Shown here: one piece after another, positions 1,971-45,425 of the stretch
How positions within the stretch are numbered: the first letter of the stretch is position 1
How the letters are laid out: each line of letters opens with the position of its first letter
Source: an uncultured Prevotellaceae bacterium
Lineage (GTDB): Bacteria > Bacteroidota > Bacteroidia > Bacteroidales > Muribaculaceae
Length of the DNA stretch: 64,000 nucleotides
Direction: 5' to 3'
Assembly: GCA_900318535.1 (NCBI GenBank)
Contig: ONKU01000001.1
Coordinates: 233,791 to 297,790 of the forward strand
The notes under the pieces: model-generated
What the model was told of the DNA's origin: nothing
What the model saw: only the letters and a program-made list of their open reading frames with translations
The model's database searches: none
Translations under genes and position numbers: made by a program

Positions 1971-2029
1971 GCGTAAGGCTTGAAAAGCACAGTGTCAACA
2001 AGTTGGAGTGGTGATTTCAAGATTTTTTG

Positions 2030-2037
2030 TATATTTG
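2030..2037 (+). promoter_or_regulatory. -7 promoter element for the metallophosphoesterase gene
   Basis: TATATTTG matches the Bacteroidetes -7 consensus TAnnTTTG and lies 31 bases before the ATG at 2069. Confidence 0.55.
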
Positions 2038-2068
2038 TGGCCCTAAACAACAAAGGCATTAACTACTT

Positions 2069-3157: not shown

Positions 3158-3205
3158 TGGAGCGGCCATGGCAGAGCCGTGGCACAGAGTGACTTAAGGT
3201 CACAA

Positions 3206-27651: not shown

Positions 27652-27670
27652 ATATACTTTGGGATATCAG

Positions 27671-29104: not shown

Positions 29105-29172
29105 GATTGGTATTCCTTGTTATTCTATATAAATAACGAGAAACCTGTCTGTTTAGTATATCCTGAGTTTCC

Positions 29173-31272: not shown

Positions 31273-31500
31273 TTACAATTTAGACTCCAGCATTGCGATG
31301 ACACGAGAAAAGTCGGTCATTTCGGCAATCTCCTCAGGTTCCAACTCCAGGTCAAACGCATCCTCCAACTCGGAGGCCAAAGCGAGATGCCGCAACGAGT
31401 CCCATTGCTCACAATTCTTTTGTGATGCGTCGATTGTCACATCCTCGACACCGAACACCTCACGCATGATTTCCAAAACTTTCTCTTCCATGGGGTTCAT
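31273..31500 (-). CDS. Acyl carrier protein paired with FkbH (canonical DSL)
   Basis: A 75-residue four-helix ACP. The phosphopantetheine site is QWDSLRHLAL, Ser35. Its ATG overlaps the FkbH stop by 4 bases, so translation of the two is coupled and this ACP is the likely partner of FkbH. FkbH enzymes load a glyceryl unit from 1,3-bisphosphoglycerate onto a dedicated ACP. The fate of the group here is unknown; the next gene encodes an acyltransferase. Confidence 0.88.
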   Translation of the reverse strand: MNPMEEKVLEIMREVFGVEDVTIDASQKNCEQWDSLRHLALASELEDAFDLELEPEEIAEMTDFSRVIAMLESKL

Positions 31501-33089
31501 AACACTCTTATATTGTAGTAGTTCTTTAATTCAAACACATCGTTCAAAACCATCTCGTAATGCTTGGCACCATCATTGCCGATATTCACACACGTCATGC
31601 CCATACGGTCGTAAAAATCAGCTGTTTGGAGATTTTTGGCGGTGGGCAGATAGGTTGCCTGGACTTTCCTGAAACCATCCAGCCTCAAGAGGTTAAATAC
31701 CGTCTTGATAAAGGCCTCCTCAATGCCTCGGCCCAAAATGCGGCAACTGAGCAACATGGTATCGATGTTTACCGTCAAGTCATCGACCGGCTCGAGGAAA
31801 ATGGTACCCGTAATGCCGCTGTCGCCGAAACGGTCGCTCACGCTCATGCAATAGACGCGCCAGCCGTCATCCAGCCGTTGCCGCACTTCACTCTCCTGAT
31901 AGCGGCGAGTGGTAAGGTTGAACTGGTTGGTCTTCTGTGTCATCTGGGCGATGCGGGGCAGATTGTGCTCATCGGCAGGAATGATGTCCAGCGACATGTC
32001 CAGGCTGTAAAGGTAACCCTCGAGGTCGGTGAAACGCGATTGCTCCGCCTGACGACGAGCGTTGGCCTGATACTGCTCGGTTTTAGAGCGGTCCTCATCG
32101 GTTACAGAATAGATGCGGAAATACTTCTCTACCAATTCCTTAAAGAATGACATCAATTGATAAGGCTTGCCGGGGAAATCAGGCACCACAACCTCAGGCA
32201 AAAGCTGCTTGACGAGTTCGCGCTCGATGGGATTGTCATCGAGGAACACCATGCTGTCCAGCCCGATATTGAGTTCAGCTGCCAATTCCCGCATATTGGT
32301 CACCTTATCTTGCCAATTGATGCGCACGGCGCTGAAGTGCTCGCGCTTGAGCACCATTGCCGCATTCTTGTCCCAGGCCTCCATCACATCGGCCTCATTA
32401 TTCTTGCTGCACACAGCCAGGATCACACCGTCATGTGCGAGCTGCAAGAGGGAACGTTGCCAGTAAGAATAAGCCTTTCCTGGATAGTCGCCGCCCAACT
32501 GGATGCCGTCGATGCCATCCTCGCCCAATACTCCGCCCCACAAGGTGTTATCCAGATCCAGCACGACGCATTTTTTACGTTTCAGGGCCAGTTCCTCCTC
32601 GATTCGGTGCCACCAAGTCTGGAAATCATGGGTCAACTTGGGATTGAGGAGCGTTTGAGACATCAAATAGTATTTCCAATTGATGAGCGTAGCAGCATCA
32701 TAGCGCAGAGTGAACTCCGAGAAGTCTATCCACTTGATATGGCGGCGCTCACGCGACAATTGTGCCACATGGCCATTAAAAGCGGCAATGGCCTCGTCTA
32801 GAGCGGTCTGGTCTCCCGTCACCCTCAACGGGAACAGGTTGACCAGCGAGAAGACGATAAACGGCTTTTGGTCACCGGTTTGGGAGAGCACCAGATCCAG
32901 TTTGCCACGGTAGGAATCAATTTCCTCGGCCAGTTGGATACTGTCGGCATTGACAGGCACCTGATAGAACCAGATATACCTATCGGCATCGGCAGACACC
33001 ATACTGATGTCGCCATAACCCGAATAAGTCATGCCGTCATAGCCGAGAAAAGGCTCAACCGTTTGATTGCGAAAGACAAATGTTGTCAT
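31497..33089 (-). CDS. FkbH-type HAD enzyme (glyceryl-ACP synthase family) with GNAT domain
   Basis: A 530-residue protein. Residues 1-155 form a variable N-terminal domain; residues 170-330 are the HADIIIC/FkbH domain with motif I VVLDLDNTLWGG (Asp178, Asp180) and a later FLDDNPIERELV. Residues 345-525 are a GNAT-like acyl-transfer domain (ILGRGIEEAFIKTVF). Characterised relatives convert 1,3-bisphosphoglycerate to glyceryl-S-ACP. In surface-glycan loci they may supply a glyceryl or derived acyl unit. It overlaps its ACP gene downstream and follows a GT2 gene by 4 bases. Confidence 0.88.
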   Translation of the reverse strand: MTTFVFRNQTVEPFLGYDGMTYSGYGDISMVSADADRYIWFYQVPVNADSIQLAEEIDSYRGKLDLVLSQTGDQKPFIVFSLVNLFPLRVTGDQTALDEAIAAFNGHVAQLSRERRHIKWIDFSEFTLRYDAATLINWKYYLMSQTLLNPKLTHDFQTWWHRIEEELALKRKKCVVLDLDNTLWGGVLGEDGIDGIQLGGDYPGKAYSYWQRSLLQLAHDGVILAVCSKNNEADVMEAWDKNAAMVLKREHFSAVRINWQDKVTNMRELAAELNIGLDSMVFLDDNPIERELVKQLLPEVVVPDFPGKPYQLMSFFKELVEKYFRIYSVTDEDRSKTEQYQANARRQAEQSRFTDLEGYLYSLDMSLDIIPADEHNLPRIAQMTQKTNQFNLTTRRYQESEVRQRLDDGWRVYCMSVSDRFGDSGITGTIFLEPVDDLTVNIDTMLLSCRILGRGIEEAFIKTVFNLLRLDGFRKVQATYLPTAKNLQTADFYDRMGMTCVNIGNDGAKHYEMVLNDVFELKNYYNIRVL

Positions 33090-33093
33090 TTCA

Positions 33094-34101
33094 TTATTTG
33101 ATCATTTGATAGATTTTGCTTAAAAAACGCCAAAGGCCAGGAACCATCATCAGGCGATGAATCATCTTCCATTTTGAGCCATGATAGTCGGCCTCGGGAC
33201 CCACACAAGGGAACGGAAAGAGACCGGCCTTGCGGATGCGGTCCAATATCTCGTCCACCAGGCCGCAGGTCAGCGCCTTGGTCATGGAGAAATAGAGATA
33301 GACGTTCCTCACGCCATATACACTAGCAGGCGCTTTTTTGCCCGTAGAGGTCTCAAACTGCCGTGCAGCAGCGTCAATCGACGCGGCGGCATCGACCTGG
33401 CTGCAGATGCGGCGCCGCAAGTGGTCCTTATCGGTATTATGCATTGCACTGTCGCTACGGTTCACGTAGCAATAGGCGATTGTATCGTCATGGGCCATGC
33501 GCGGGGCGTTCAACAGGAAACTGGCGATGAGGGCACCATCCTCACATACAATGAGAGACGTGTCAAAACGCCATCCCCGTTGCACCAGATAATCACGCTT
33601 GATGAAAAACCGCCACACGTAAGGCGTCATGCTGTGGGAATTCAGGAAGTCATAGCCCGTCATGACGGGGGTTGACGCATAGTTGTCGTCGCGCGTGTGC
33701 GGCAACACCTTGCCTTGAGAATCCTCACAGTTATAGTTGAACGAGAGCACATCAAGGTCATCGTCAATGGCACGCTGCACCAAACCGTGAATCACATCGT
33801 CCTCCAAGCGGTCATCACTATCTACAAACATGACGTAACGGCCTCGAGCACAGTCCAACGCATGATTGCGGGCAGCGCTCACGCCCAAGTTCTCCTGGGT
33901 CAACAACTTCACCTGACGATTGCCGCGGGCAAAAGCCTCGACGACAGCCCTGCTGCCATCGGTCGAGCCGTCATCAACGACAAGGACCTCGTAATCATCG
34001 GGCCACAACTGCTGATTCACAATGGAATGCAAACACCGCAGCACATAGTGCTCGGTGTTGTATAGCGGGATGATATATGTCAACAGGAGTTCATCCATCA
34101 T
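33094..34101 (-). CDS. Family 2 glycosyltransferase
   Basis: A 335-residue GT-A fold enzyme. The N-terminal half shows LTYIIPLYNTEHYVLRCLHS, VVDDGSTDGS, GVSAARNHAL and the metal-binding FVDSDDRLED. The C-terminal part is helical. It transfers a sugar from a nucleotide donor at the cytosolic face of the membrane; donor and acceptor are unknown. It overlaps the VOC gene by 4 bases, an odd place for a transferase inside an acyl-metabolism unit, and suggests that acyl and sugar steps act on the same product. Confidence 0.88.
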   Translation of the reverse strand: MMDELLLTYIIPLYNTEHYVLRCLHSIVNQQLWPDDYEVLVVDDGSTDGSRAVVEAFARGNRQVKLLTQENLGVSAARNHALDCARGRYVMFVDSDDRLEDDVIHGLVQRAIDDDLDVLSFNYNCEDSQGKVLPHTRDDNYASTPVMTGYDFLNSHSMTPYVWRFFIKRDYLVQRGWRFDTSLIVCEDGALIASFLLNAPRMAHDDTIAYCYVNRSDSAMHNTDKDHLRRRICSQVDAAASIDAAARQFETSTGKKAPASVYGVRNVYLYFSMTKALTCGLVDEILDRIRKAGLFPFPCVGPEADYHGSKWKMIHRLMMVPGLWRFLSKIYQMIK

Positions 34102-34499
34102 GGCTGAGCCTCAACCAGTTCGACGAGCCCGGTGTTCTTTTGAAAGAGAAAAGCAATACGTCTGTTATCCATCGCACATGCGGGAACAGGGCCATTGACA
34201 AGCAGGAAACGCTGCTCGCGCAGGGATGCAATGGCGGCCTCGATATCCTGCACCTCATAGCACATGTGATAAGGCGTCACACCAGCGGTAGCCAAGGTGC
34301 GTGCCACTGGGTTCTGCTCGTCAAGCGGCTCGAGCAGTTCCAGCCGCGGTGCCCCACCCTTATCCAGGAAGCAGATGCGCACATGCTGCAGCGGGTCTTC
34401 GATGACAGGCGAGGCCGTATAGCCCATCATCAGGTAGAAGGGCTTGGTCTTCTCGATATCACGGCAAGCGATACCTATGTGATGAAAAGTCAACATCAA
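34098..34499 (-). CDS. VOC-superfamily protein (methylmalonyl-CoA epimerase/glyoxalase-like)
   Basis: A 133-residue protein with two beta-alpha-beta-beta-beta units. The likely metal ligands of the family are visible: His7 in FHHIGIACRD, Glu54 in PRLELLEP, His78 in YHMCYEV and Glu127 in GLVELVEAQ. VOC enzymes bind a divalent metal and act by proton abstraction (epimerases, glyoxalases). Next to KAS III and ACP genes it could act on an acyl thioester. It overlaps the KAS III and GT2 genes by 4 bases on each side, so all three are translationally coupled. Confidence 0.82.
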   Translation of the reverse strand: MMLTFHHIGIACRDIEKTKPFYLMMGYTASPVIEDPLQHVRICFLDKGGAPRLELLEPLDEQNPVARTLATAGVTPYHMCYEVQDIEAAIASLREQRFLLVNGPVPACAMDNRRIAFLFQKNTGLVELVEAQP

Positions 34500-35545
34500 T
34501 ACTCGATGACAGGAGATATCTTGCAGTCACGCATCGGCATGAGGACCGATCCCCAACTCAAGCCAGCACCAAAGGCACTCATCATCACCAGGCGTTCTCC
34601 ATCCAAGCAGCCGGCCAATTCACTGGCTATGGTCAAGGGAACCGATGCGCTGCTGGTGTTTCCATACTTGTGGATGCAATAAGGCACACGGGCAGGATCC
34701 ATCTTGAGTTTCTTGACAAAGAAGTCCATCATGAAGCGGTTAGCCTGATGGAAAACCAGATAGTCCAGGTCATCGATGGTGTGATCGGTCTCCTTAAGCA
34801 ATGTTTTTATGCTCTTGGGCACCTTGCTAATGGCGAAATTAAACACATCCATGCCATCCATAAACACTTCCAGGTCGGTGCGGATGTTGCCGTCTTCACG
34901 CTCACGCTCCACGCAGGAGTCGGGCGTGATGGGATGTCTCATGCCGGCATGAATCTTCAGCACATCCTCACCGCTACCGTCGGTATAGAGCAGGAACGTT
35001 GATGTGCCGTAGTCACCTTTCTCAATCAGTGTTGCCGTTCCCGCATCGCCATAGAGGGGCCAGTCCACCTTATCACGGCGATTGACAATCTTGGAAAACG
35101 TCTCGCCGTCAAGCAAAAGCACGCGGTTGACGCCCTGCATCGAAGCATAGGCGAATGCTGTACTGAGAGCGAACAAATATCCCGAACAGCCAAGCGAGAT
35201 GTCGAAGCACATGGTCTCGCGCGGCAGTCCCAGACGATGCTGCAACAAGCACGAGGTGGCGGGAATGCGGTAATCCGGAGTCTGGCTCATGAACAAGAGC
35301 ACATCGATGCTGGCCGGATCTATATCGTTATCTTCCATCAACTGCCGTGCAGCCTTGTAACACAGGTCGCTAGCGGTGACATCGGGGGCAGCAATGCGCC
35401 GCTGCTCGATGCCGATGTTGTTGATGGTCTTTTCGATTTCCTCTTCAGGAATGAGATAGCCGAGGTCTTTGTTATAGACAACCTCAGGGGGCACACAAGC
35501 GCTCATAGCCTTGATGCCTACACCTTGAAAAGTAATTTTTGCCAT
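34496..35545 (-). CDS. Beta-ketoacyl-ACP synthase III family protein (copy B)
   Basis: A 349-residue thiolase-fold enzyme. The triad is intact: Cys120 in SLGCSGYLFA, His266 in FHQANRF and Asn296 in YGNTSS. KAS III condenses an acyl-CoA or acyl-ACP starter with malonyl-ACP. It is not the house-keeping FabH in context: it lies between ACP and VOC genes in a glycan locus and has a close paralogue at 39667-40731, with Cys120 at the same place. Its substrate is unknown. The ACP gene lies 105 bases upstream. Confidence 0.9.
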   Translation of the reverse strand: MAKITFQGVGIKAMSACVPPEVVYNKDLGYLIPEEEIEKTINNIGIEQRRIAAPDVTASDLCYKAARQLMEDNDIDPASIDVLLFMSQTPDYRIPATSCLLQHRLGLPRETMCFDISLGCSGYLFALSTAFAYASMQGVNRVLLLDGETFSKIVNRRDKVDWPLYGDAGTATLIEKGDYGTSTFLLYTDGSGEDVLKIHAGMRHPITPDSCVEREREDGNIRTDLEVFMDGMDVFNFAISKVPKSIKTLLKETDHTIDDLDYLVFHQANRFMMDFFVKKLKMDPARVPYCIHKYGNTSSASVPLTIASELAGCLDGERLVMMSAFGAGLSWGSVLMPMRDCKISPVIEY

Positions 35546-35649
35546 AGAAAGAGGGAATTAACCCTTGTTGTGGTGAAAATGATATCTGTCAGAGAACAGA
35601 TTCAAAGCAAAAGCCTCAGCACTGGCTGTAGGCTGAACTGGTAACAGTT

Positions 35650-35892
35650 TTATGGACGCACGCCCACCTTGTCCTTGACGATGTTGTAAAGGTCCTCAAC
35701 CGTGTTGCTGCCGCGAATATCATCGCCACGAAATTCGACATCATATTCCTCGTCAACCATCGCTATGACTGACAATGCAACAAGTGAAGACCATTCTTCC
35801 AAGTCCTTGAAATGGGTAGTGGCCTTTATATCGTCGGCATCTGTTTCATCGAACAGATCCGCAAAGTATTCTATGAATTGATCCAAATTCAT
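35650..35892 (-). CDS. Acyl carrier protein with SSL site (unit B)
   Basis: An 80-residue ACP. The start at 35892 is chosen over an earlier ATG because it aligns exactly with the paralogue at 42454-42687 (both begin MNLxxFIExFA). The attachment site is EWSSLVALSVIAM, with Ser36 at the normal phosphopantetheine position but the preceding Asp of the usual DSL replaced by Ser. A -7 box (35940-35947) precedes it, so it probably heads a transcript through KAS III, VOC, GT2, FkbH and ACP. Confidence 0.87.
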   Translation of the reverse strand: MNLDQFIEYFADLFDETDADDIKATTHFKDLEEWSSLVALSVIAMVDEEYDVEFRGDDIRGSNTVEDLYNIVKDKVGVRP

Positions 35893-35939
35893 CTGCTGTA
35901 AATACAACGTAATTACACCATGATTTATTTTAGCGGGTG

Positions 35940-35947
35940 CAAAATTA
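35940..35947 (-). promoter_or_regulatory. -7 promoter element for acyl unit B
   Basis: The minus strand reads TAATTTTG, 48 bases before the ACP start. The flanking DNA to 36047 is AT-rich. Confidence 0.5.
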
Positions 35948-36047
35948 AACAAAAAAAACTTAAATCAGCACTTTCATACGTATTTTTACAGCACATTTTT
36001 CAAAAAGCGGTACAATCCTGACCGAAATTAGTGAAAAATGTCAGCAA

Positions 36048-36692
36048 TCAGAAGTCAAATCTCTTAGCCGGAACCCCCAGATAGGTAGCATTATCACGGG
36101 GCTGGGTCATGAGCACGCTGTTGGCACCCAGAGTGACTCCGTTACCGATGACCATTCCTTGCAGAACGACACTGGCAACACCCAGCAGGTTGTTGTCACC
36201 GATGGTGATACCGCCCGAGAGATGAGCTGCCGGCATGAGTCCGTTGAAGTTACCGATGACATTGTCATGCCCCACCACGACGTGGTCATTGATGAGGTTG
36301 AAGTCACCGATCGTTACATCGCATGAAATCATGCAGTCGTTCTGGATGATATTGCCCTCACCCATCGTCAAAGTCTCTTTGTCAACGAGAAACAATGACG
36401 GATCAATTAGATTCGGGAAGGTGATATTGGGATTGTCAATGCTTTCACGGATGCGCCTGACGGCCTTGTTATCGTTGATGGCGATAGCAATAGCCAATGG
36501 CTCATTACATTTGGAAAGCCACTCCATACCACCAATCACTTTTCCATAACTGGAGACTTGCATCCCCACAGGCTTGGAATCATCAAAGAAACCTATCAGA
36601 TTCCATTGTCCATCACCGTGGGCATTGATCCTGTTGATCAGGCAGGCTACTTCCTTGCCAAAACCTCCAGCTCCATAGATTGCGATATTCAT
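36048..36692 (-). CDS. PglD/NeuD-type sugar acyltransferase
   Basis: A 214-residue enzyme. Residues 1-95 form the N-terminal Rossmann-like domain (IAIYGAGGFGKEV); 100-205 form a left-handed beta-helix of hexapeptides, with the candidate base His in VVVGHDNVIG. PglD and NeuD relatives acetylate a 4-amino sugar nucleotide or sialic acid with acetyl-CoA. It follows a DegT aminotransferase by 39 bases, the usual pair for making an N-acylated amino sugar. It is a paralogue of the C-terminal half of the fusion at 43546-44811. Confidence 0.87.
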   Translation of the reverse strand: MNIAIYGAGGFGKEVACLINRINAHGDGQWNLIGFFDDSKPVGMQVSSYGKVIGGMEWLSKCNEPLAIAIAINDNKAVRRIRESIDNPNITFPNLIDPSLFLVDKETLTMGEGNIIQNDCMISCDVTIGDFNLINDHVVVGHDNVIGNFNGLMPAAHLSGGITIGDNNLLGVASVVLQGMVIGNGVTLGANSVLMTQPRDNATYLGVPAKRFDF

Positions 36693-36731
36693 TGTCTATA
36701 AAGTATTGATTTTTATGATATTCACATTTTA

Positions 36732-37874
36732 TCACTTCTTGCAGCAAGAAATTATCTCACGTGCAACACGTTCCACATCCTCGTCGCTCACCCAAGGCCC
36801 GCTGGGCAAGCACAGACCCATCGAGAACAGATGCTCGCTTACGCCATTCACATAGGCAGGAGCACCCGAGAACACCGGTTGGGTGTGCATCGGCTTCCAC
36901 AGGGGGCGCGACTCTATATTGCATGTTTCCAAGTGCAAGCGAACAGTCTCATAATCGGTACCCGTCTTATCTGGGTCGATCAGGATCGTGTTGAGCCAGT
37001 AGTTACTGTCGGAGCGCTCGTCAAAGTTGGTGTGCACATCAATGCCATCAACGTCGGCAAACAGCTCGACATAGCGGTCACACAAGTGCTTGTGGTGAGC
37101 CAGATGCTCCTCAAAGACAGTCATTTGGCCTCGGCCTATACCGGCACAGATGTTACTCATGCGGTAATTGTAACCGATCTCCTTGTGCAGATAATAAGGC
37201 ATGGGCTCTCGCGACTGGGTGGCGTAGAACATGATCTTCTTCTTTGCCTCGTCGTCGGGGCAGATGAGAGCTCCACCGCCGCTGGTGGTAATCATCTTAT
37301 TGCCATTGAAGCTCATGATGCCAAAATCGCCAAAGGTACCGCACAGCTGTCCACGATAACGAGAACCGAAGGCCTCGGCAGAATCCTCGACAACGGGAAT
37401 CTCATAACGACGGGCCACCTCCATAATGTCGTCAATCTTGGCCGGCATACCATATAGGTAGACGGGGATGATGGCTTTGGGCTTACGTCCGGTCTTGGCA
37501 ATACGGTCCTTGATCGCATCCTCGAGCAGGTTGGGGTCGATGTTCCAGGTGTCGGGTTCGCTATCTACAAACACTGGAATGCCACCCTGATAGGTCACCG
37601 GATTGGCACTGGCCGAGAAAGTCATCGACTGGCAAATCACCTCGTCGTCGCGACCAACGCCCAACTTGACGAGTGCCAGATGGATAGCCGCCGTTCCCGA
37701 GCTCAAAACGACCACCCGCTTGTCATTACCGCAGAGGCGTTCAAGATCTTCCTCAAAGGCGTTCACATTAGGTCCAAGGGGCACGACCCAGTTGGTGTCA
37801 AACGCCTCTTGGATGTATTTCATTTCCTGGCCGCTCATGTGAGCCAGACAAAGCAAAACTCTGTTATTAGCCAT
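36732..37874 (-). CDS. DegT/DnrJ/EryC1 (PglE-like) sugar aminotransferase
   Basis: A 380-residue PLP enzyme. The PLP Lys is Lys193 in FNGNKMITTSGGG; Asp164 in VVEDSAEAFG binds the pyridine nitrogen. Such enzymes move the amino group of glutamate to the 4-keto (or 3-keto) carbon of a nucleotide sugar. With the PglD-type gene downstream and a PglC-type transferase in the same locus, it most resembles the route to UDP-2,4-diamino-2,4,6-trideoxy sugars. The 4,6-dehydratase that would make its substrate is not in this window. Confidence 0.9.
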   Translation of the reverse strand: MANNRVLLCLAHMSGQEMKYIQEAFDTNWVVPLGPNVNAFEEDLERLCGNDKRVVVLSSGTAAIHLALVKLGVGRDDEVICQSMTFSASANPVTYQGGIPVFVDSEPDTWNIDPNLLEDAIKDRIAKTGRKPKAIIPVYLYGMPAKIDDIMEVARRYEIPVVEDSAEAFGSRYRGQLCGTFGDFGIMSFNGNKMITTSGGGALICPDDEAKKKIMFYATQSREPMPYYLHKEIGYNYRMSNICAGIGRGQMTVFEEHLAHHKHLCDRYVELFADVDGIDVHTNFDERSDSNYWLNTILIDPDKTGTDYETVRLHLETCNIESRPLWKPMHTQPVFSGAPAYVNGVSEHLFSMGLCLPSGPWVSDEDVERVAREIISCCKK

Positions 37875-37895
37875 ATTATCGAAATTACTTTAATA

Positions 37896-38483
37896 TCATA
37901 AAACATTTTCAGACTGTGCCGGATGGCCGGGATAAATCTGGATGTGCTCAGCCAGTCGCAAAATGCGTTCCCGGTTTTGCAGTGCCAGCACCTTGTCGGA
38001 ATGCGGGAAATTGGTGACCGTCCTCACTCCCGGAATGTAACTGTCGCCCGTGAAGAGCGCAGTCTCGCCCACCTGCCATGTCACACAATCGGGGCTATGT
38101 CCCGGCGTGTAGATGGCCTTGGCATCGATATCCTCAAAGAGTTTCAGCACCTCGCCATCGGCAACAATCCTGATTCTTTCGGGTTCATCCAGGACAAAAG
38201 GTGTCTCGTGATACCTTGAGAAGTTCAGTTTATCGCTGAGCAAGCCTTCACGCCCGGCCTCATTAGTCATGATGAAAATGCCCGGGTAGTGTTGCAACAG
38301 TTGATTGAGGCCATATATATGGTCGAAGTGGGTATGGGTTAACAATACCCCCGCCAAGTGATCACCAATGAGCGGCAACAGCTGTTCCACGTCGCCACAA
38401 TCGACAATCCAAGAAGCATCGCCCTGAGACAGGACATAGCTGCATGAGTTGAAAACCGTATTGACGACTTGCCGTATGACCAC
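37896..38483 (-). CDS. Metallo-beta-lactamase-fold hydrolase
   Basis: A 195-residue single-domain protein. The dinuclear metal site is complete: LTHTHFDHIYG, the TPGHSPDC His, the FTGDSYIPG Asp and the YPGHP His. It resembles the glyoxalase II/YcbL group, which splits thioesters and similar bonds. Between an ATP-grasp gene and a sugar aminotransferase gene, next to ACP and KAS III genes, a thioesterase or editing role is plausible but unproven. Confidence 0.85.
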   Translation of the reverse strand: MVIRQVVNTVFNSCSYVLSQGDASWIVDCGDVEQLLPLIGDHLAGVLLTHTHFDHIYGLNQLLQHYPGIFIMTNEAGREGLLSDKLNFSRYHETPFVLDEPERIRIVADGEVLKLFEDIDAKAIYTPGHSPDCVTWQVGETALFTGDSYIPGVRTVTNFPHSDKVLALQNRERILRLAEHIQIYPGHPAQSENVL

Positions 38484-38545
38484 TTATAAAAACTTTGGTT
38501 AATATTATATAACGTAAAGACCCACTATAAAATTGTGCTGAACCT

Positions 38546-39646
38546 TTATTGCATGTGCAAAAAGAAGTTCATTTCCTTGCCAAAGGTCTTCTTATATGTC
38601 TGCATGCGAGCACACTTAACCTGCCGCGCCCGGTCTATCACTTCATCGAGATATTCCCCGAACATGGGGCCGGCCATCATCTGAGGCCCCTCGACACTGG
38701 GCACGAGGTTAAACTCAATGAGCAAGGGCTCGCCATCAGGCAAAACCGTGACATCCCAGCCCACGAAATCGAAATACGGCAATCGACGATGCAGTGAAAG
38801 CAACGTTTCAATGACTTTGCCGTAATTGGGGACAACGAGATTCTCCACCCCGGTCTCCAGTTTGAGCGAGGACACTTCCATGTTCTTGAAGCGATAAACC
38901 CTGTCGTCAACCCTGCCGTCATCATGAATCAGGCAAGTGCCACCACCCTGCGACACATTATCCTTGATGGCGCCCTTGCCTCCGAAACGCATGTGAGCGA
39001 AGGGATACAGGAACTCATAACTCCCGTCCTGACGGCGATAGGTATAAAGGCGCATAGAATTGAGCGACGTGGGATTAACGCGCTGCAAATCAGGATGCTG
39101 CTTTACCTTCTCCTGTACAATGAAGTTGAGGGCATATTGATTGAACAGGGCCCTGAGCTTGTCGGGATCACGGCCATCAATCTGCTCAACACCCTCGCCA
39201 TTGCAGGTCTCGACTGTGGGCTTGATGATGAGGTCGTGATCAGCAGCGCAGACAGCCTCAATGGCTTGATCGAGGTTTATTTCCTCACCGTCACGATAAT
39301 AATGGCCATGGATATTCTTTATGATGGCGAGGGGCTGTTTCACCTGAGGGAACAACTCGCTATAGATGTTCTTGTCCAGATAAGCGTCCTTGAAATCATG
39401 ACGGTTAAGCGCCGGAATCACATAGAAGTAATATACATCCATCGACAAGTAACGGTCGCTGTGGATGCCACTCAGACTAGAGAAATAGTCATCAAACATC
39501 ATCGAGACCTTGAATCCCTTGTTCTCATAATAAGCCGAGAGTTCCTTCTTGTGAGCCTTGTAGTTAAAGCCGTCGCACATGACGTGGTTCTTGAAATACC
39601 AGTCACCCCAGTAATACTCTTGGTTGGAATTGATGTATTTTGCCAT
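38546..39646 (-). CDS. Sugar-transfer-associated ATP-grasp protein
   Basis: A 366-residue protein. The ATP-grasp core is visible from about residue 110: DLIIKPTVETCNGEGVEQI (ATP lid and Lys), NFIVQEKVKQHP, RLYTYRRQDG, GGKGAIKDNVSQGGGTCLI and the metal site FVGWDVTVLPDGEPLLIEFN. ATP-grasp enzymes join a carboxylate to an amine or thiol through an acyl phosphate. This subfamily is found in capsule and O-antigen loci, where it may add an amino-acid or similar amide to the glycan. The substrates here are unknown. Confidence 0.87.
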   Translation of the reverse strand: MAKYINSNQEYYWGDWYFKNHVMCDGFNYKAHKKELSAYYENKGFKVSMMFDDYFSSLSGIHSDRYLSMDVYYFYVIPALNRHDFKDAYLDKNIYSELFPQVKQPLAIIKNIHGHYYRDGEEINLDQAIEAVCAADHDLIIKPTVETCNGEGVEQIDGRDPDKLRALFNQYALNFIVQEKVKQHPDLQRVNPTSLNSMRLYTYRRQDGSYEFLYPFAHMRFGGKGAIKDNVSQGGGTCLIHDDGRVDDRVYRFKNMEVSSLKLETGVENLVVPNYGKVIETLLSLHRRLPYFDFVGWDVTVLPDGEPLLIEFNLVPSVEGPQMMAGPMFGEYLDEVIDRARQVKCARMQTYKKTFGKEMNFFLHMQ

Positions 39647-39666
39647 AGGATTACCGCTTTTAACTA

Positions 39667-40731
39667 TTAATATGTAATCACATCACTCATTTTCAGACCG
39701 CCAGCATAGAATTCCATGCTCGCCCATGCCAGGCCGACCCCAAATCCACAGGCCAGGCAATGCTGCTCTTCGTCTCCTGACAGCTTGTCTTGACAACGAG
39801 TCACCATGGTCAAGGGGATAGATGCACTCGTGACGTTGCCGTATTCCTCGAGGCAATAGGGGGTCTTCTCGGGAGGAATCTTGATGGCTTTGCGTATTTT
39901 CTCGTCGATAAACCTGTTGGCTTGATGCAGGAGCAACAGGTCAACCGTCTCAACATCAATATTGAAGGTGGCAATCAACTCCTTGAGGGAGCGAGGCGGC
40001 CGCTTAATGGCGAAGCCAAACACGTCCATGCCGTTGACTACCATATCCACGCCACGACGATAAACGCCTGGCGAAACCTCTTTCTCCTCCAGCGACTCGG
40101 GAGTAACGGGATTACGCATTCCGCCATAAGGAGCCCAAACAGCGTCAAATCCCTTGCCATCAACACCATACATGAAATTCATGGGATGCGGATACTCGGG
40201 ATCGAATTCCAGGGCAGTTGCCGTGGCGGCATCGCCGAACAGCGGGCGCACCGTCGTATCGCGGGGATTGCGGTTTTGGGTATTGGTCTCGGCTGCTACC
40301 AGAATGGCACGCTTGAATGTTCCATGTGACATCAGCGAGCCGACAATACTCATACCATAGACCCAACCAGAGCAGCCGAAAGGCAAGTCGAACACGCAAC
40401 AATCGCTTCGAAGCTTCAGCCTGTCCTGAAGAACGCAAGCCGTCTGGGGAGCAATATAGTCTCGCGACGTGCACACATAGGCGAAACAGTCCACGTCCTC
40501 GGCCGCCCACCCCATGTCAGCCAGCAAGCGCTCCACGGCCTTGACCGTGAGATCAGATGCCGTTGTGCCGGGTTCTACCTTGTGGTGGCGTTCGATGCCT
40601 GTCGATGCTATGACCTTGAGGGCATCGTTCTGGTCCTTGTAGATAGGAAGTGTGAGGTTATCCTCGACGGTGGCGGGCACACAGGCGCTCATGCCTGCGA
40701 TGCGCACGTTGTTGATGGTGAGTTGTGACAT
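39667..40731 (-). CDS. Beta-ketoacyl-ACP synthase III family protein (copy A)
   Basis: A 354-residue thiolase-fold enzyme with an intact triad: Cys120 in PFGCSGWVYG, His269 in LLHQANRF and Asn299 in YGNVTS. It is a paralogue of the protein at 34496-35545, as shown by matching blocks (AGMSACVPA/KAMSACVPP, GMRNPVTPES/GMRHPITPDS). It follows the AMP-ligase gene by 3 bases and is expected to condense an acyl starter with malonyl-ACP or to transfer an acyl group between carriers. The product is unknown. Confidence 0.9.
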   Translation of the reverse strand: MSQLTINNVRIAGMSACVPATVEDNLTLPIYKDQNDALKVIASTGIERHHKVEPGTTASDLTVKAVERLLADMGWAAEDVDCFAYVCTSRDYIAPQTACVLQDRLKLRSDCCVFDLPFGCSGWVYGMSIVGSLMSHGTFKRAILVAAETNTQNRNPRDTTVRPLFGDAATATALEFDPEYPHPMNFMYGVDGKGFDAVWAPYGGMRNPVTPESLEEKEVSPGVYRRGVDMVVNGMDVFGFAIKRPPRSLKELIATFNIDVETVDLLLLHQANRFIDEKIRKAIKIPPEKTPYCLEEYGNVTSASIPLTMVTRCQDKLSGDEEQHCLACGFGVGLAWASMEFYAGGLKMSDVITY

Positions 40732-40734
40732 ATC

Positions 40735-42204
40735 CTATTGTTTCAGTTTTAATCGTTGTATTTTCCCTGAGCTGGTACGGGGAATGCTGTCTACCCATTC
40801 CCACTCAACGGGTATCTCGTGTGGTGGCAGCAATTGGGTTAATTGCTGCTTGATATCTTCGAAAGTGACTTGATTGTCATCCTTTTGGAGAAAGGCTTTA
40901 GGTACCTCGCCCAATACTCCGTTGGGATCAGGCACAGCGATACAGGCGCAGTCGGCGATGCCAAGGGAACGTATCGCGTCTTCAATAGTGGCTGGGCTCA
41001 CTTTCTCGCCTCCGACGTTGATGAGCTCTTTTTTTCGGCCTGTAAGATAGAAATTGCCCTCATCGTCACGATGTCCCCAGTCACCAGTGCGGAACCAGTC
41101 ACCATAAAAACTGCCTGCGTTGTCTTGGGGTTTGAAATAGGAACGGGTAACCATATTGCCGCGCACGCAAATTTCACCATCCACGCCATTGGCAACGAGA
41201 TTGCCATCATCGTCGCGAATCGACGCCTCGACCAATGACGAAGCAGGACGGCCTACAGCCTCCAGATTACCGGCATTGGCATGGAACTCGGTGAACATGG
41301 CGCGTGAGGCCTCGGTAAGGCCATAATGCATGCACAGGCGCGTATTGGGGAAAATTTCCATCAGGAGCCGCTTGTCCTCGAGAGGCAAGGCGGCACTGCC
41401 GATTTCAATATATTTCAACTGTTCAGCAAAGCGGGCAATGCGCCGTCCGCTCAGCCGCTTAATGTATTGCCAAACCGCTGGCACCATGCCAAAGCCTGAC
41501 ACATGCCAGGCATCGAGTACAGAGAAAAACGATTTAAGGTTAGCGAAATTGCCAACCAGCACCAGTGTAGCTCCAGCCATAAGCACGCAACGCAGGCGTC
41601 CAAGGCCAAACGAGTGGCTCAGCGGCAGCGCTAGAGCCTCGATGTCGTCGGAACAGGTGCCGATAAAGCCATTGGTGTTGCTCGCCGATCCAGCGATATT
41701 GGCATGAGTCAGGCACACACCCTTGGGAACTCCTGTAGTCCCTGTGGTGAACATGACATCGGCCACATCGTTGACATCAACTGTCGGCCACGTCAAATCA
41801 GCCGAGTGGGCATCATCCGATTCTGGTCGATTAAATGAATAACATGGCACCCCATTCACACCCTCAAGCCCGGAACTGAATAGTGCAGACGGTTTGACCA
41901 CATCAATGATGTAATCCAAACGATCTCGGGGCGATGCCACATCCACTACCACATTGACCACACCCAGCAAGTGGGCCGCAAAATAATGATAGACGAAAGA
42001 CAGTTCCTTTTGCGCTGCCAGAACGATGCGGTCGCCAGGCTTCAGGCCCAATGCGAGCAAGGCACGCGCCGTCTGCTCGATGCGGGCCATCAGTTGGGCA
42101 TAAGTCACTTGAAAATCGCCCTCGACAAGAGCGACCTTGTCGGGGGTTTCGATGGCATGCCTGGAAATTTCACACAGCAGTATGCTGTGGGGGGCGTCAA
42201 ACAT
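40735..42204 (-). CDS. AMP-dependent acyl ligase (acyl-CoA/acyl-ACP synthetase family)
   Basis: A 489-residue adenylate-forming enzyme. The P-loop-like motif TTGTTGVPKG is at 153-162, YGLTEASRAMF is the A5 motif, FRTGDWGHRDDEGNFYLTGRKKELINVGGEKVSP covers motifs A7 and A8, and the catalytic Lys481 lies in SSGKIQR. It activates a carboxylic acid as acyl-AMP and loads it on CoA or a carrier. The gene overlaps the neighbouring ACP gene by 8 bases, so that ACP (42197-42427) is the likely acceptor. The acid is unknown. Confidence 0.9.
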   Translation of the reverse strand: MFDAPHSILLCEISRHAIETPDKVALVEGDFQVTYAQLMARIEQTARALLALGLKPGDRIVLAAQKELSFVYHYFAAHLLGVVNVVVDVASPRDRLDYIIDVVKPSALFSSGLEGVNGVPCYSFNRPESDDAHSADLTWPTVDVNDVADVMFTTGTTGVPKGVCLTHANIAGSASNTNGFIGTCSDDIEALALPLSHSFGLGRLRCVLMAGATLVLVGNFANLKSFFSVLDAWHVSGFGMVPAVWQYIKRLSGRRIARFAEQLKYIEIGSAALPLEDKRLLMEIFPNTRLCMHYGLTEASRAMFTEFHANAGNLEAVGRPASSLVEASIRDDDGNLVANGVDGEICVRGNMVTRSYFKPQDNAGSFYGDWFRTGDWGHRDDEGNFYLTGRKKELINVGGEKVSPATIEDAIRSLGIADCACIAVPDPNGVLGEVPKAFLQKDDNQVTFEDIKQQLTQLLPPHEIPVEWEWVDSIPRTSSGKIQRLKLKQ

Positions 42205-42427
42205 TTGTGAGTTTCTCGACCTCCTCGACTATTGAGCGTACAGAGGTCAGATCGAAGAGATCTTCGAGCGGGAACTCCAAGTCAAGTTCCTGCTCTATTG
42301 TACTAATAATTGCCAAATTACCAACAGAATCCCACTCGGGGATATCGCCCGAAGACAAGTCGTCGGTAATCCGGTCAAAAGCCACGTTCAGTACACGGGC
42401 TATAATTTCCTTTACTTTTGAATCCAT
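42197..42427 (-). CDS. Acyl carrier protein paired with the acyl ligase (DSV site)
   Basis: A 76-residue ACP with the phosphopantetheine site EWDSVGNLAI, Ser34. Its stop overlaps the start of the acyl-ligase gene, so the pair is translationally coupled and the ligase probably loads this carrier. It is only distantly similar to the SSL-type ACP just upstream, so the unit holds two functionally different carriers. Confidence 0.88.
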   Translation of the reverse strand: MDSKVKEIIARVLNVAFDRITDDLSSGDIPEWDSVGNLAIISTIEQELDLEFPLEDLFDLTSVRSIVEEVEKLTNV

Positions 42428-42453
42428 TGATGCGCCTGTTCTAAGGCAGCGGT

Positions 42454-42687
42454 TTATCCACGTAATTTTACAACGACGTCGAACAAATCCTTGATGGTAT
42501 CAGAACTGATGATGTCATTACCCTTGATAATCACATCATACTCATCGTCAACCATGGCGATAATCGACAATGCAGCCAGGGATGACCATTCATCCAATTG
42601 CTTGAATTGTGTTTCAGCGGTAAACAATTCTGGTTCAGTATCGTCGAACTGAGCAGCAAAGTTTTCAATAAAGTCCTCTAAATTCAT
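42454..42687 (-). CDS. Acyl carrier protein with SSL site (unit A)
   Basis: A 77-residue ACP with the site EWSSLAALSIIAM, Ser36, where the usual Asp before the modified Ser is a Ser. It is a close paralogue of the ACP at 35650-35892 (shared MNLxxFIExFA start and VDxEYDV block). The -7 box at 42738-42745 precedes it, so it seems to head the transcript of acyl unit A. Confidence 0.88.
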   Translation of the reverse strand: MNLEDFIENFAAQFDDTEPELFTAETQFKQLDEWSSLAALSIIAMVDDEYDVIIKGNDIISSDTIKDLFDVVVKLRG

Positions 42688-42737
42688 ATATTGGTTATAT
42701 TATGTACCTGATTTTTCAATTCTATAGATTTATCGGG

Positions 42738-42745
42738 CAAAAGTA
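42738..42745 (-). promoter_or_regulatory. -7 promoter element for acyl unit A
   Basis: The minus strand reads TACTTTTG, 51 bases before the ACP ATG at 42687, in an AT-rich 96-base spacer. The position matches that of the element before unit B. Confidence 0.5.
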
Positions 42746-42783
42746 CATACAATTTTGAAAAACACAAAATAAACAAGAAAAAA

Positions 42784-43527
42784 CTATATCGAGAAGCCCC
42801 CATCAATGACCAAATCGTGCCCTGTAAGCCACGATGAAGCATCACTCAGGAGGTAAACGGCACCGTTGGCGATATCATCGGGTTTACCATATCGGCCCAA
42901 CGGATAACGCTTGGCGTCCTCGGCCAGTTGTTCTTCGGTGATTGTCCCGCGATGGATGAGCGGGGTGTCCACCATACCAGGGCAGATGCTGTTGACCCTG
43001 ATCTTGCGCGATGCATACTCGCGGGCAGCATATTTCATCAGCGAGTTGAGCGCAGCCTTGGATGCTCCATACACGCCATTGCCCGGCATGAAACTGTGAG
43101 TACCGCCAATCGAGGCTATCAGTACCACCGAGGCTCCCTTTTGGAGAACCTTCTTTTTGTACATCAGCCGCAACAACTCGACAGGAGCGAAGAAATTGAC
43201 ATTGAACATTTCATCAAATTTCTCACGAGAGCCGAACTGTAACGGCAATGTCGTCGAGTTACCCGCACACAACACTGCTCCATCTAGAGGCGGCAGGGCG
43301 GCAACCAGGCGCTCGACGTCCTCTTGGTTAGTTAAATCGGCGGCAATCTGTGCTTTGAGGTTCCCCATGAGGTCTGCTGTTGCCTGCAGACGCTCGGTGT
43401 CGCGCCCTGTGATTACCACTTCAGCGCCCATCTGTGCACACTCTATAGCCGTCGCCTGGCCGATGCCTGACGATGCCCCAGTGACCAGAATGGTTTTACC
43501 CTTGAGCGAAAAAGGATTATACTCCAT
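42784..43527 (-). CDS. SDR-family oxidoreductase (FabG-like)
   Basis: A 247-residue classical short-chain dehydrogenase. The NAD(P) motif is TGASSGIG (16-23), NNAG-like CAGN follows, and the catalytic Ser139, Tyr153 and Lys157 (YGASK) are present. FabG relatives reduce 3-ketoacyl-ACP to 3-hydroxyacyl-ACP, which would fit a unit that also has KAS III and ACPs; a sugar keto group is the alternative. It lies 18 bases after the double acyltransferase gene and 96 bases before the first ACP gene. Confidence 0.87.
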   Translation of the reverse strand: MEYNPFSLKGKTILVTGASSGIGQATAIECAQMGAEVVITGRDTERLQATADLMGNLKAQIAADLTNQEDVERLVAALPPLDGAVLCAGNSTTLPLQFGSREKFDEMFNVNFFAPVELLRLMYKKKVLQKGASVVLIASIGGTHSFMPGNGVYGASKAALNSLMKYAAREYASRKIRVNSICPGMVDTPLIHRGTITEEQLAEDAKRYPLGRYGKPDDIANGAVYLLSDASSWLTGHDLVIDGGFSI

Positions 43528-43545
43528 TATTTCTCAATTGTTTAA

Positions 43546-44811
43546 TTATTCAAAATCAAATTTCTTGGCAGGCACTCCGATGTAAGTGAAGCCGTCTTTG
43601 GGTTTGGTCATCATCACACTGCCAGCGCCCAGAGTGACGTTGTCACCAATCTTGACGCGTTGCAGCACAATACTGTCCACGCCCAGCAGATTGCAAGTGC
43701 CCAGTTTGACCTCACCAGACAAGCGCACGCCAGGCATCAGCACATTGAAGTCACCCACATTGACATCATGTCCCAACGCATTAGAGCCATTGAAAACGTT
43801 GAAGTTGCCAATCTTGACATCACAAGTAACGCTACAGTTATCCTGGATGATATTGCCCTCACCAATCTCAAAGGTTTGCCTATCAAGAACCCGGAACGAC
43901 GGAGCTATCAGATTGGGAAAACTGATGTTAGGGTTAGAAATGCGGTCATGAATCTGCTTTCGTGTCTTGGTCGCCCCGACAGCAATTGCCAGTGCCAAAG
44001 GCTCACTGAATGCATTGAGCTCATTAATACCACCAAGCACTTGCCCGTAGTGCGATACCTGTGACCCCACCGGGATGTTGTCGTCAAAGAAGCCAACAAT
44101 CTCCCACTGCTGCCGCCCGGCATTGTTAATACGTTGTATGCCGCCAGCCACTTCGCGCCCAAGTCCGCCAGCACCATAGATAGCAATGCGTTTTGCGCAA
44201 GATGCTGTGAGATCGCTATACGGAATCGCGGGCTTTGTTCTAATTCGACATGGGTTGCCATAGGCAGTCGCTCCATCTGGCACGTCACTTACCACAACAC
44301 TGCCAGCTCCAACTGTACACCACTTGCCAATCTTAACACCTGGTATGACTACAGCCGCTGCTCCAATCCAAGCTCCTTCTCCCACCTGAACATTTCCACA
44401 TAGGGTAGCTTGAGGCGAGATGTGGACATAGTCGCCAATGATACACTCATGGTCAATTGAAGCTCCTGTGTTCAAGATGCAATGCTTTCCCATTTTTACA
44501 TCACTCTGAATCACAGATCCCTGCATGATTACGGTACCCTCACCGATTGTCGAGTAAGGAGAAACCACTGCCGTCGGATGAATAATGGTTCCGAATTCGC
44601 AGTCAAGCTTCTCGGCTATCTGTCTACGGGACAGATTGTTGCCTACACTGACCACTACGGGAGATTCACCATTCCAATGGTGCTTGACCGGAATCGTTAA
44701 CAACTCCTTGATTGAAGGGTCATCGTCAAACAATGCATCGACCTTGATTCCAGATGCATTTAATATGTCAATAATGACTTTAGCGTGTCCGCTTGCTCCG
44801 TATAGATACAT
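43546..44811 (-). CDS. Double PglD/NeuD-type sugar acyltransferase (two fused copies)
   Basis: A 421-residue protein made of two complete acyltransferases. Residues 1-205 are a PglD-like unit: MYLYGASGHAKV, then a beta-helix with TGASIDHECIIGDYVHI, whose His matches the catalytic base. Residues 210-421 start again with IAIYGAGGLGREV and end in a second beta-helix with His in ALGHDVNVG. The second half is closer to the free-standing protein at 36048-36692 than to the first half. PglD-type enzymes N-acylate amino-sugar nucleotides. Its stop/start overlaps with the PglC-type gene by one base. Confidence 0.88.
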   Translation of the reverse strand: MYLYGASGHAKVIIDILNASGIKVDALFDDDPSIKELLTIPVKHHWNGESPVVVSVGNNLSRRQIAEKLDCEFGTIIHPTAVVSPYSTIGEGTVIMQGSVIQSDVKMGKHCILNTGASIDHECIIGDYVHISPQATLCGNVQVGEGAWIGAAAVVIPGVKIGKWCTVGAGSVVVSDVPDGATAYGNPCRIRTKPAIPYSDLTASCAKRIAIYGAGGLGREVAGGIQRINNAGRQQWEIVGFFDDNIPVGSQVSHYGQVLGGINELNAFSEPLALAIAVGATKTRKQIHDRISNPNISFPNLIAPSFRVLDRQTFEIGEGNIIQDNCSVTCDVKIGNFNVFNGSNALGHDVNVGDFNVLMPGVRLSGEVKLGTCNLLGVDSIVLQRVKIGDNVTLGAGSVMMTKPKDGFTYIGVPAKKFDFE

Positions 44812-45425
44812 CAGTTATTACCGTTAAAAGTTTCCATTGTTGCTTGACCGTTTTGGGCAATCCCATCACGGGCAATCACTTTTTTTATTGTCGTAAGTAT
44901 TACTTTTACGTCTGTAAGAAAGCTGCAGTGGTCCACATACCACACGTCGAGCTTGAATTTGTCGTGCCATGACAAGGTGTTGCGTCCATGGCATTGTGCC
45001 CATCCTGTGATGCCAGGTCGCACCTCGTGGCGGCGCGCCTGTTCAGGAGAGTAAAGGGGCAGGTACTGAACCAACAGCGGACGGGGCCCTATCAGTGCCA
45101 TGTCGCCCTTGAGCACATTGAAGAGTTGGGGCAGTTCATCTATGCTTGTTGAGCGGACGAAACGCCCTACCCTGGTCAATCGCTGAGCGTCAGGCAGCAG
45201 TTTGCCATTAGCGTCACGCTCATCGGTCATTGTCTTGTATTTGATGATCTTAAAAATCTTGCCATCCTTGCCTGGGCGTTCCTGCAGGAAAAAAGCGCCA
45301 GCCCCCTTGTTAGCGAAGTGCAGCCAAATCGTCACCACCAGCAGCAGCGGCGACAGACAAATAATAGCCACAAGAGCGATGCTGAAACCCAACACCCGCT
45401 TGATACAATCACGATATAATTTCAT
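44811..45425 (-). CDS. PglC-like phosphoglycosyl transferase (initiating sugar transferase)
   Basis: A 204-residue monotopic enzyme with one N-terminal membrane helix/hairpin (11-33) and the bacterial sugar-transferase core: KYKTMTDERD (catalytic Asp-Glu), RVGRFVRSTSIDELPQL, IGPRPLLVQYLPLY and the RPGITGWAQ end. It transfers phospho-sugar from UDP-sugar to undecaprenyl phosphate, starting the repeat unit. The close PglC likeness and the DegT and PglD-type genes point to a diamino-sugar (bacillosamine-like) as first sugar. This is inference. Confidence 0.92.
   Translation of the reverse strand: MKLYRDCIKRVLGFSIALVAIICLSPLLLVVTIWLHFANKGAGAFFLQERPGKDGKIFKIIKYKTMTDERDANGKLLPDAQRLTRVGRFVRSTSIDELPQLFNVLKGDMALIGPRPLLVQYLPLYSPEQARRHEVRPGITGWAQCHGRNTLSWHDKFKLDVWYVDHCSFLTDVKVILTTIKKVIARDGIAQNGQATMETFNGNN

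Follow-up and report, generated by a model that had tools for sequence, protein, structure and literature searches.

N-Acylation of amino sugars with groups carried on an acyl carrier protein (ACP) has been described in two bacteria. In Pseudomonas syringae, N-(3-hydroxybutyryl)viosamine is made with acp, vioS (a 3-ketoacyl-ACP synthase III, KAS III), vioR (a reductase), vioB, and vioA, and mass spectrometry found the sugar missing in vioR, vioA, and vioB mutants (available part of PMC3927599). The O-antigen of Flavobacterium psychrophilum, with a structure determined by nuclear magnetic resonance, carries 3,5-dihydroxyhexanoyl on Qui2NAc4N; the proposed roles are synthases for wfpC and wfpE, ACP for wfpD, reductase for wfpF, and PglD homologue for wfpG, and the C-termini of PglC are possibly adapted to this acyl group (available part of PMC6519341, which also cites the Campylobacter PglD/PglE/PglC pathway to bacillosamine). 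Among tetronate genes, the FkbH-like Mad7 and the ACP Mad8 feed the FabH-like Mad16 (available part of PMC7489565). Here, we describe a cassette in the surface-polysaccharide (glycan) locus of a gut bacterium, an uncultured member of the Prevotellaceae (Muribaculaceae in GTDB; assembly GCA_900318535.1, 2.9 Mb in 43 contigs), that would join N-acylation of the viosamine/Wfp type with the feeding of a FabH-like enzyme by FkbH and an ACP. It lies in a stretch of 64,000 nucleotides of contig ONKU01000001.1 (positions 233,791 to 297,790; here, the window, in whose own numbering the cassette coordinates are given), and all of its genes are on the minus strand.

The Campylobacter pathway resembles the cassette in its aminotransferase, PglD-type N-acyltransferase, and PglC, and the first half of a fusion protein of the cassette (described below) belongs to the same PglD family; the Campylobacter pathway takes its acetyl group from acetyl-CoA and, to our knowledge, involves no ACP or KAS III. 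F. psychrophilum is itself a member of the Bacteroidota. Its wfpC-wfpG genes share with our locus a glycan setting with PglC and PglD homologues, an ACP, two 3-ketoacyl-ACP synthases, and one reductase, but they include one acyltransferase and one ACP, and the available part of their description reports no FkbH, AMP ligase, VOC protein, or swappable N-domain (PMC6519341). The P. syringae viosamine island likewise combines an aminotransferase, a VioB-type acyltransferase, a KAS III, a ketoacyl-ACP reductase, and an ACP; it differs in having one KAS III and one ACP and in placing dTDP-viosamine on flagellin, and the seven genes listed in the available part of the paper comprise no FkbH, ligase, VOC protein, fusion, or second set (PMC3927599). 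The tetronate genes are similar in that a FabH-like enzyme is supplied by FkbH and a stand-alone ACP, although they belong to an actinomycete polyether antibiotic and not to a glycan and serve ring formation with two further genes (available part of PMC7489565).

All parts of Vio/Wfp-type N-acylation are encoded at our locus, namely, ACP, KAS III, a ketoacyl-type reductase, a PglD-type acyltransferase, and a sugar aminotransferase. The initial annotation of the window had singled out these genes as the best candidate for an undescribed system. Descriptions of ACP-based N-acylation of amino sugars exist for both P. syringae viosamine and the O-antigen of F. psychrophilum, so that the core pathway is already published and this claim cannot be kept; the idea that PglD-type enzymes pass KAS III/ACP-made acyl groups to amino sugars gains support from the same precedents (available parts of PMC3927599 and PMC6519341) and from the recurrence of the gene pattern among 26 loci outside the cassette (L092 to L117, below). 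With the principle known from two other bacteria, three features look new: the double layout, a KAS III lineage fed by FkbH, and a swap site on the fusion protein.

We read the cassette as a sugar-modifying one in which two short type II acyl lines feed the N-acylation of amino sugars, a reading that we regard as moderately probable. We infer the substrates, the direction of flow, the acceptor sugar, and the two-line arrangement from the gene content; two separate acyl lines are plausible. Line 1 corresponds to unit 1 (44811 to 39667). Here, an AMP-forming acyl ligase (40735 to 42204; AMP-binding, E 9e-67) would load a carboxylic acid onto a canonical (DSV) ACP, the gene of which overlaps that of the ligase by 8 bases (42197 to 42427; PP-binding, 33.5 bits). 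The KAS III of this unit, of the KAS-A lineage (39667 to 40731; assigned by ACP_syn_III and ACP_syn_III_C, a Cys-His-Asn triad, and its position in the tree), would condense this acyl group with malonyl on an SSL-type ACP (42454 to 42687), and the sole short-chain dehydrogenase/reductase (SDR) of the cassette, a proposed 3-ketoacyl-ACP reductase (42784 to 43527; adh_short_C2, E 3e-57), would reduce the beta-ketone. The fusion protein (43546 to 44811) consists of an N-terminal PglD/NeuD-type acetyltransferase (ca. residues 1 to 200) and a C-terminal divergent PglD-like acyltransferase, PglD2f. Its second half would acylate a nucleotide-activated 4-amino sugar at the amine, and the acylated sugar would then be used by a PglC-type initiating sugar-phosphate transferase encoded directly before the fusion with a 1-base overlap (44811 to 45425; Bac_transf, E 9e-60).

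Line 2 corresponds to unit 2 (36692 to 34496) and the VOC, family 2 glycosyltransferase (GT2), FkbH, and ACP genes that follow it. FkbH (31497 to 33089; TIGR01686, 293.4 bits, above the cut-off of 146.65) would use an intermediate of glycolysis to form an acyl group on a canonical (DSL) ACP (31273 to 31500; PP-binding, 24.2 bits; 4-base overlap with FkbH); by analogy with glyceryl transfer from 1,3-bisphosphoglycerate to ACP, the product would be of the glyceryl-ACP type and the chain glycerate-derived. The second KAS III, of the FkbH-associated KAS-B lineage (34496 to 35545; ACP_syn_III_C, E 3e-25), would condense the FkbH-made acyl group with malonyl on a second SSL-type ACP of 80 residues (35650 to 35892, from an ATG at 35892 conserved in the alignment of relatives; the mechanical start of the open reading frame [ORF] is 35952), and the shared SDR would reduce the product. 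A stand-alone PglD-like acyltransferase of 214 residues, PglD2 (36048 to 36692; PglD_N and Hexapep), would transfer the acyl group, and a GT2 embedded in the unit (33094 to 34101; Glycos_transf_2, E 4e-34) would probably add that sugar. A DegT-type sugar aminotransferase (36732 to 37874; DegT_DnrJ_EryC1, E 1e-91) would provide the acceptor amine.

That PglD2 may draw its acyl group from the SSL ACP is indicated most directly by one case, a Tannerella sp. record (L115, positions 1441 to 2340) that joins ACYLTRANSFERASE and ACP in one protein of 299 residues, with PglD2 at residues 3 to 210 and the SSL ACP at 219 to 292. Such a fusion directly supports acyl transfer from an ACP.

Family assignments agreed with the initial annotation as to the two triads of acyltransferase, SSL ACP, and KAS III and as to a canonical ACP with its own loader in each unit, the AMP ligase in unit 1 and FkbH in unit 2. 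As had been noted, the triads are also paralogous part by part, and the similarity is far above chance: the second half of the fusion and the 214-residue protein are 56% identical over 213 residues (E 3e-85), the two SSL ACPs 57% over 72 (E 8e-28), and KAS-A and KAS-B 37% over 354 (E 5e-77), with Cys120 in each. The repeat is, however, not a simple duplication of whole units, since KAS-A and KAS-B are of different lineages. In a tree of 58 sequences (57 from chosen loci plus FabH; L094, on the same contig as L037, was left out of the trees), the KAS-A and KAS-B proteins of the genus fall into two different starred lineages, and holding them together (14 versus 44 rows, quick tree) was rejected by the approximately unbiased test (p 6.4e-7); a recent tandem duplication of the whole triad is thus rejected for KAS III. 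In the acyltransferase tree (47 rows), the two copies of the genus are sisters at a node that is not starred (SH-aLRT 89), and they are probably true sisters, although this support is not decisive; the tree of SSL ACPs (43 rows, 77 columns) is largely unresolved. On the question of whether the copies came from unrelated lineages, the trees therefore separate the synthases and not the acyltransferases. We read the triads from these three trees as a mosaic, in which the acyltransferases possibly were duplicated and the synthases would be old and separate.

KAS-B lies in a starred clade of 17 rows, 16 of them from loci with FkbH (the exception is L115), and being the KAS nearest an FkbH (16 of 57 rows) requires only 2 changes on the tree. 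At E 1e-60, 66 of the 395 genomes searched in the class, its own included, have relatives of KAS-B; within its own genome, the query found one further KAS III, FabH-like and outside the locus. A KAS III lineage tied to FkbH, usually together with a glyoxalase-like VOC protein, in several Bacteroidales including Bacteroides fragilis Q1F2 looks new. FkbH, ACP, and a FabH-like enzyme are at the same time the core of tetronate ring formation, and for this reason we considered that unit 2 makes a tetronate-like or otherwise cyclised glycerate product. All three are listed among the tetronate genes (available part of PMC7489565), and the tie of KAS-B to FkbH is as expected for such a route. Of the five tetronate-operon genes (FkbH, ACP, FabH-like enzyme, acyltransferase, and dehydratase), the first three are present at the locus; no relatives of the last two were noticed in Pfam scans, no sequence-based search for them having been made. 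Among 40 matches of KAS-B in the PDB at E 1e-20, no molecule was named as a tetronate enzyme. The SDR found in FkbH loci with a single KAS (L105, L108, L109, L111, and L116) fits simple reduction, and we consider a cyclised product very unlikely.

The catalytic residues of the synthases are intact: the Cys-His-Asn triad was present in all 81 KAS III compared, both window proteins included. Trp32 of FabH, which we take to act in CoA binding (this and the other position numbers being those we assume for FabH), was found in none of the 81 but is present in the FabH of this genome; Arg36 was found in 3 of 81 and Arg151 in 18 of 81, and both window proteins lack all three residues. Against the housekeeping FabH model (TIGR00747), they scored 151.5 and 213.8 bits, below the cut-off of 292.1. 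The loss of Trp32 fits starters bound to ACP. Being family-wide, it does not separate loci with loaders from loci without them and thus is no proof of an ACP starter by itself.

Among the carriers, the SSL ACP of unit 1 scored below the PP-binding cut-off (PF00550, 18.4 versus 20.8 bits), and that of unit 2 reached 25.8 bits. The predicted fold of the former (mean pLDDT 91) had ACPs as all of its ten best solved matches (TM 0.74 to 0.81), none of them reaching E 0.001 (best, 5.7e-3). The attachment-site Ser is invariant in the 26 aligned SSL ACPs; a W-S-S-L motif occurs in 86 of 95 distinct SSL ACPs of relatives and W-(D/N)-S in 80 of 81 other ACPs.

Over its full length, the fusion matched the NeuD/PglD/VioB model TIGR03570 with 376.5 bits, divided between two stretches (the better one at 2 to 189), above the cut-off of 160.8, and PglD2 scored just below it (154.5 bits) with its PglD_N domain kept. 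At the PglD catalytic place, the His of a GH(D/N) motif is present in all 104 distinct relatives of PglD2 (89 by pattern and 15 by eye), and both window proteins have another residue in place of the second PglD His; the roles of the two residues are those that we presume from PglD. The structure predicted for PglD2 had low confidence in its beta-helix, with a mean pLDDT of 74 overall and no block above 52 from residue 141 on, and was not used.

Although PglD2f is kept in all 32 readable cassette loci among L054 to L091, the N-domain joined to it varies: 19 loci have PglD, 6 a PylC-like ATP-grasp domain, 6 a FemAB-like domain, and 1 ATP-grasp plus HAD (called by similarity to the window PglD and by Pfam scans of three representatives). 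The exchange extends to the window itself (43546 to 44811) and to L042, L046, and L050. From these families, the N-domain may represent a second, exchangeable amide-forming step. That PglC switches along with it is at best partly true, and we make no such claim: PglC identity was 82 to 99% in all 19 PglD-type loci and 70 to 74% in four ATP-grasp loci (L065, L079, L083, and L088) but 82 to 83% in L054 and L076; it was 54% in the FemAB-like L066, and no PglC was present in the available stretch of the other five FemAB-like loci and L055.

Conservation was studied first within the genus (37 genomes including our own, many of them incomplete drafts; E 1e-30). Both cassette acyltransferases were present in 16 genomes and neither in another 16; the exceptions were the fusion only (G033), two other copies (G003), and one other copy each (G005, G010, and G014). 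From this list we took 20 regions, 12 double loci (L042 to L053) and 8 others. The double loci have a common order of PglC, fusion, SDR, SSL ACP, ACP, ligase, KAS-A, ATP-grasp, MBL, aminotransferase, PglD2, SSL ACP, KAS-B, VOC, GT2, and FkbH, with few departures: no MBL was found in L043, L049 and L051 have no Acyl_transf_3, L045 has an extra ATP-grasp gene, L046 has a second PglC and intervening genes, and L042 has genes between PglC and the fusion. The glycosyltransferases upstream vary among these 12 loci. This ordered two-line cassette looks like a new layout. In L045 (from G032), two more pairs of SSL ACP-like and KAS III-like genes lie upstream of PglC (1389 to 4022).

A second set consisted of 64 loci from named genomes, the best 64 of 183 relatives. 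Of these, L054 to L091 (38 loci) are copies or pieces of the cassette, several cut short, and are not independent, because some overlap the genomes of the genus survey; both PglD2 types occur in 33 of the 38. An SSL ACP follows PglD2 within three genes at 59 of the 64 loci; KAS III is present at 61, FkbH at 44, VOC at 43, and FkbH together with VOC at 42. Of the 26 loci outside the cassette, 21 have the SSL ACP label within three genes of PglD2, and KAS III is present at 24, SDR at 24, FkbH at 9, and VOC at 8. Among the five without the label, L115 is the fusion described above and L092 has an SSL ACP ORF that the gene picker dropped; L096 has no ACP-like ORF in 1.5 kb, and none was found in L103 or in L110, the only ORF listed at this place in L110 being its VOC. 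The closest named records are metagenome-assembled genomes labelled Muribaculaceae, Prevotellaceae, or Bacteroidales, several of them named from ruminant stomachs.

Outside the cassette, the modules are recombined. A unit of PglD2, SSL ACP, SDR, KAS-B, VOC, FkbH, and ACP occurs in L105, L108, L109, and L111 and, without the VOC gene between KAS-B and FkbH, in B. fragilis Q1F2 (L116). Other loci have PglD2, SSL ACP, KAS, SDR, and KAS (L095, L112, L114, and L117) or versions with more distant ligases (L097, L099, L100, L102, L104, L106, and L107). The record of L109 is labelled Verrucomicrobia, which points to horizontal transfer or a mis-binned contig. Of 14 fetched loci, 9 (L162 to L165 and L167 to L171, all nine from outside the order but within the class) have an operon of KAS, ACP, KAS, SDR, and GT2 without a recognised PglD-like enzyme nearby, followed in L162 by a weak GNAT match and an Asp/Asn hydroxylase-like protein. 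Such operons would be expected if the KAS III and ACP genes made a lipid or secondary metabolite and stood in the glycan locus by chance. The close PglD-like neighbours, often with PglC and aminotransferase, across genera, the PglD2-ACP fusion in L115, and the two published pathways (available parts of PMC3927599 and PMC6519341) all argue otherwise, and we hold this to be the least probable of the explanations considered.

Several observations weigh against two separate lines, each with its own acyltransferase. One SDR would have to serve both, and a single strong aminotransferase stands against three acyltransferase domains in the cassette (in a search of the genome with the aminotransferase, the next match was 30% identical, E 3e-22). 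The genome with only the fusion (G033, locus L034) has both SSL ACPs, KAS-B, VOC, and FkbH but lacks the 214-residue enzyme; the two lines may thus share one acyltransferase, or there may be a single line. PglD2, VOC, FkbH, and ACP occur with no KAS III seen in L040 (20 kb) and L110 (where the contig starts 2.4 kb upstream); therefore, the FkbH product is perhaps transferred directly. Trp32 is also lost in the KAS III of loci without any loader. Part of this evidence would suit one longer line, in which an FkbH-made starter is extended by KAS-B and then by KAS-A with the shared SDR, giving a longer polyhydroxy acyl group and leaving the second acyltransferase and SSL ACP partly redundant. The single SDR and the missing acyltransferase of G033 point that way, as do the FkbH-type units that have gained a KAS from the other lineage (L035, L037, L093, and L101), each with one PglD2, SSL ACP, SDR, VOC, FkbH, and ACP and one KAS per lineage, and the two synthases and one reductase proposed for a single 3,5-dihydroxyhexanoyl group in F. 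psychrophilum (available part of PMC6519341). Nevertheless, the pair of acyltransferases is retained along with the pair of SSL ACPs (the 33 loci mentioned above have both PglD2 types), and there are two loader-ACP pairs, whereas a single line started by FkbH would leave the ligase without a role. We therefore regard one long line as rather unlikely and retain the two-line reading.

As to what the loaders might supply, matches of the ligase in the PDB are adenylation domains of nonribosomal peptide synthetases (NRPS) and acyl-CoA ligases. We considered loading of an amino acid; an alpha-amino acid is less likely because the ligase reads HSFG where the aligned NRPS domain has FDIS, a position that we take to mark amino acid loading. 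At E of 1e-90 or less, the ligase has few relatives in the order: 3 of 295 genomes have one, counting its own, and the other two are those of L158 and L159. In L159 (8042 to 12937) and the genus relative L038 (13012 to 18954), ligase and ACP relatives adjoin LuxE-LuxC fusions and transketolase-like genes, and in L158 (9532 to 12422), such relatives adjoin an iron alcohol dehydrogenase, the next gene encoding 828 residues. The VOC-superfamily protein (34098 to 34499; Glyoxalase_4, E 7e-24) is glyoxalase I/methylmalonyl-CoA epimerase-like; its best PDB matches are 2qh0 (lactoylglutathione lyase) and 3hdp (glyoxalase-I), and a role as methylmalonyl-CoA epimerase was rejected (TIGR03081, 68.3 bits, cut-off 114.95). 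We considered, as a candidate idea, that it gives lactoyl-ACP from methylglyoxal by a glyoxalase-like reaction; the FkbH unit of B. fragilis Q1F2 does without a VOC gene at that place. At E 1e-30, its relatives occur in 2 of 295 genomes of the order, its own included. Literature searches on FkbH in an O-antigen setting and on FkbH together with Bacteroides, ACP, and capsular polysaccharide returned nothing, which is weak evidence of absence given that most subscription papers were not covered.

The remaining genes complete the map. Between the two units, along with the aminotransferase, lie a sugar-transfer-associated ATP-grasp protein conserved in the cassette (38546 to 39646; PF14397, E 2e-26) and an MBL-fold hydrolase often adjoining the aminotransferase (37896 to 38483; Lactamase_B, E 6e-16; GSH_gloB, 43.5 bits, below the cut-off of 200.8); these three and the sole SDR cannot be attributed to one unit alone. 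The aminotransferase scored 357 bits with the LegC-type model (below the cut-off of 420) and 204 with PseC; for the SDR, FabG-type models were among the 25 matches shown, none of the 25 above its own cut-off. A membrane acyltransferase, missing from some relatives, ends the cassette (30233 to 31249; Acyl_transf_3, E 3e-29). Packing is operon-like, with overlaps between ACP and ligase in unit 1, KAS-B and VOC, VOC and GT2 (4 bases), and FkbH and ACP in unit 2. Upstream are glycosyltransferases, an EpsG-family protein, a pyruvyl transferase, and a UDP-galactopyranose mutase, and elsewhere in the genome there is one strong PglF-like match (398.7 bits) with five weaker ones. After the cassette (26134 to 30228) come an EEP-type phosphatase family gene, a gene for a 477-residue protein without a Pfam match, and a GHL10 protein gene, the first two being present together in 30 of the 64 loci.

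On these grounds we put forward, as a tentative proposal, a hybrid glycan-polyketide route in which FkbH would place a C3 unit from glycolysis on an ACP, KAS-B would extend it, and a PglD-like enzyme would link the polyhydroxyacyl (or lactone-like) group as an amide to a surface amino sugar. Several Bacteroidales would share it, B. fragilis Q1F2 in a minimal form, and in the genus studied here it would run beside a ligase-fed line with an exchangeable amide-forming domain, so that chemistry would be varied by swapping acyl modules and not sugars only. If this holds, Bacteroidales of gut and rumen, one B. fragilis strain among them, possess a set of modules with which short, custom-made acyl chains are attached to surface sugars, offering enzyme pairs (FkbH with ACP and ligase with ACP) and a KAS III lineage with an expected ACP-bound starter. 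As a general inference, antibodies, phages, and enzymes that contact a capsule or O-antigen can encounter, among other features, the acyl groups of its amino sugars.

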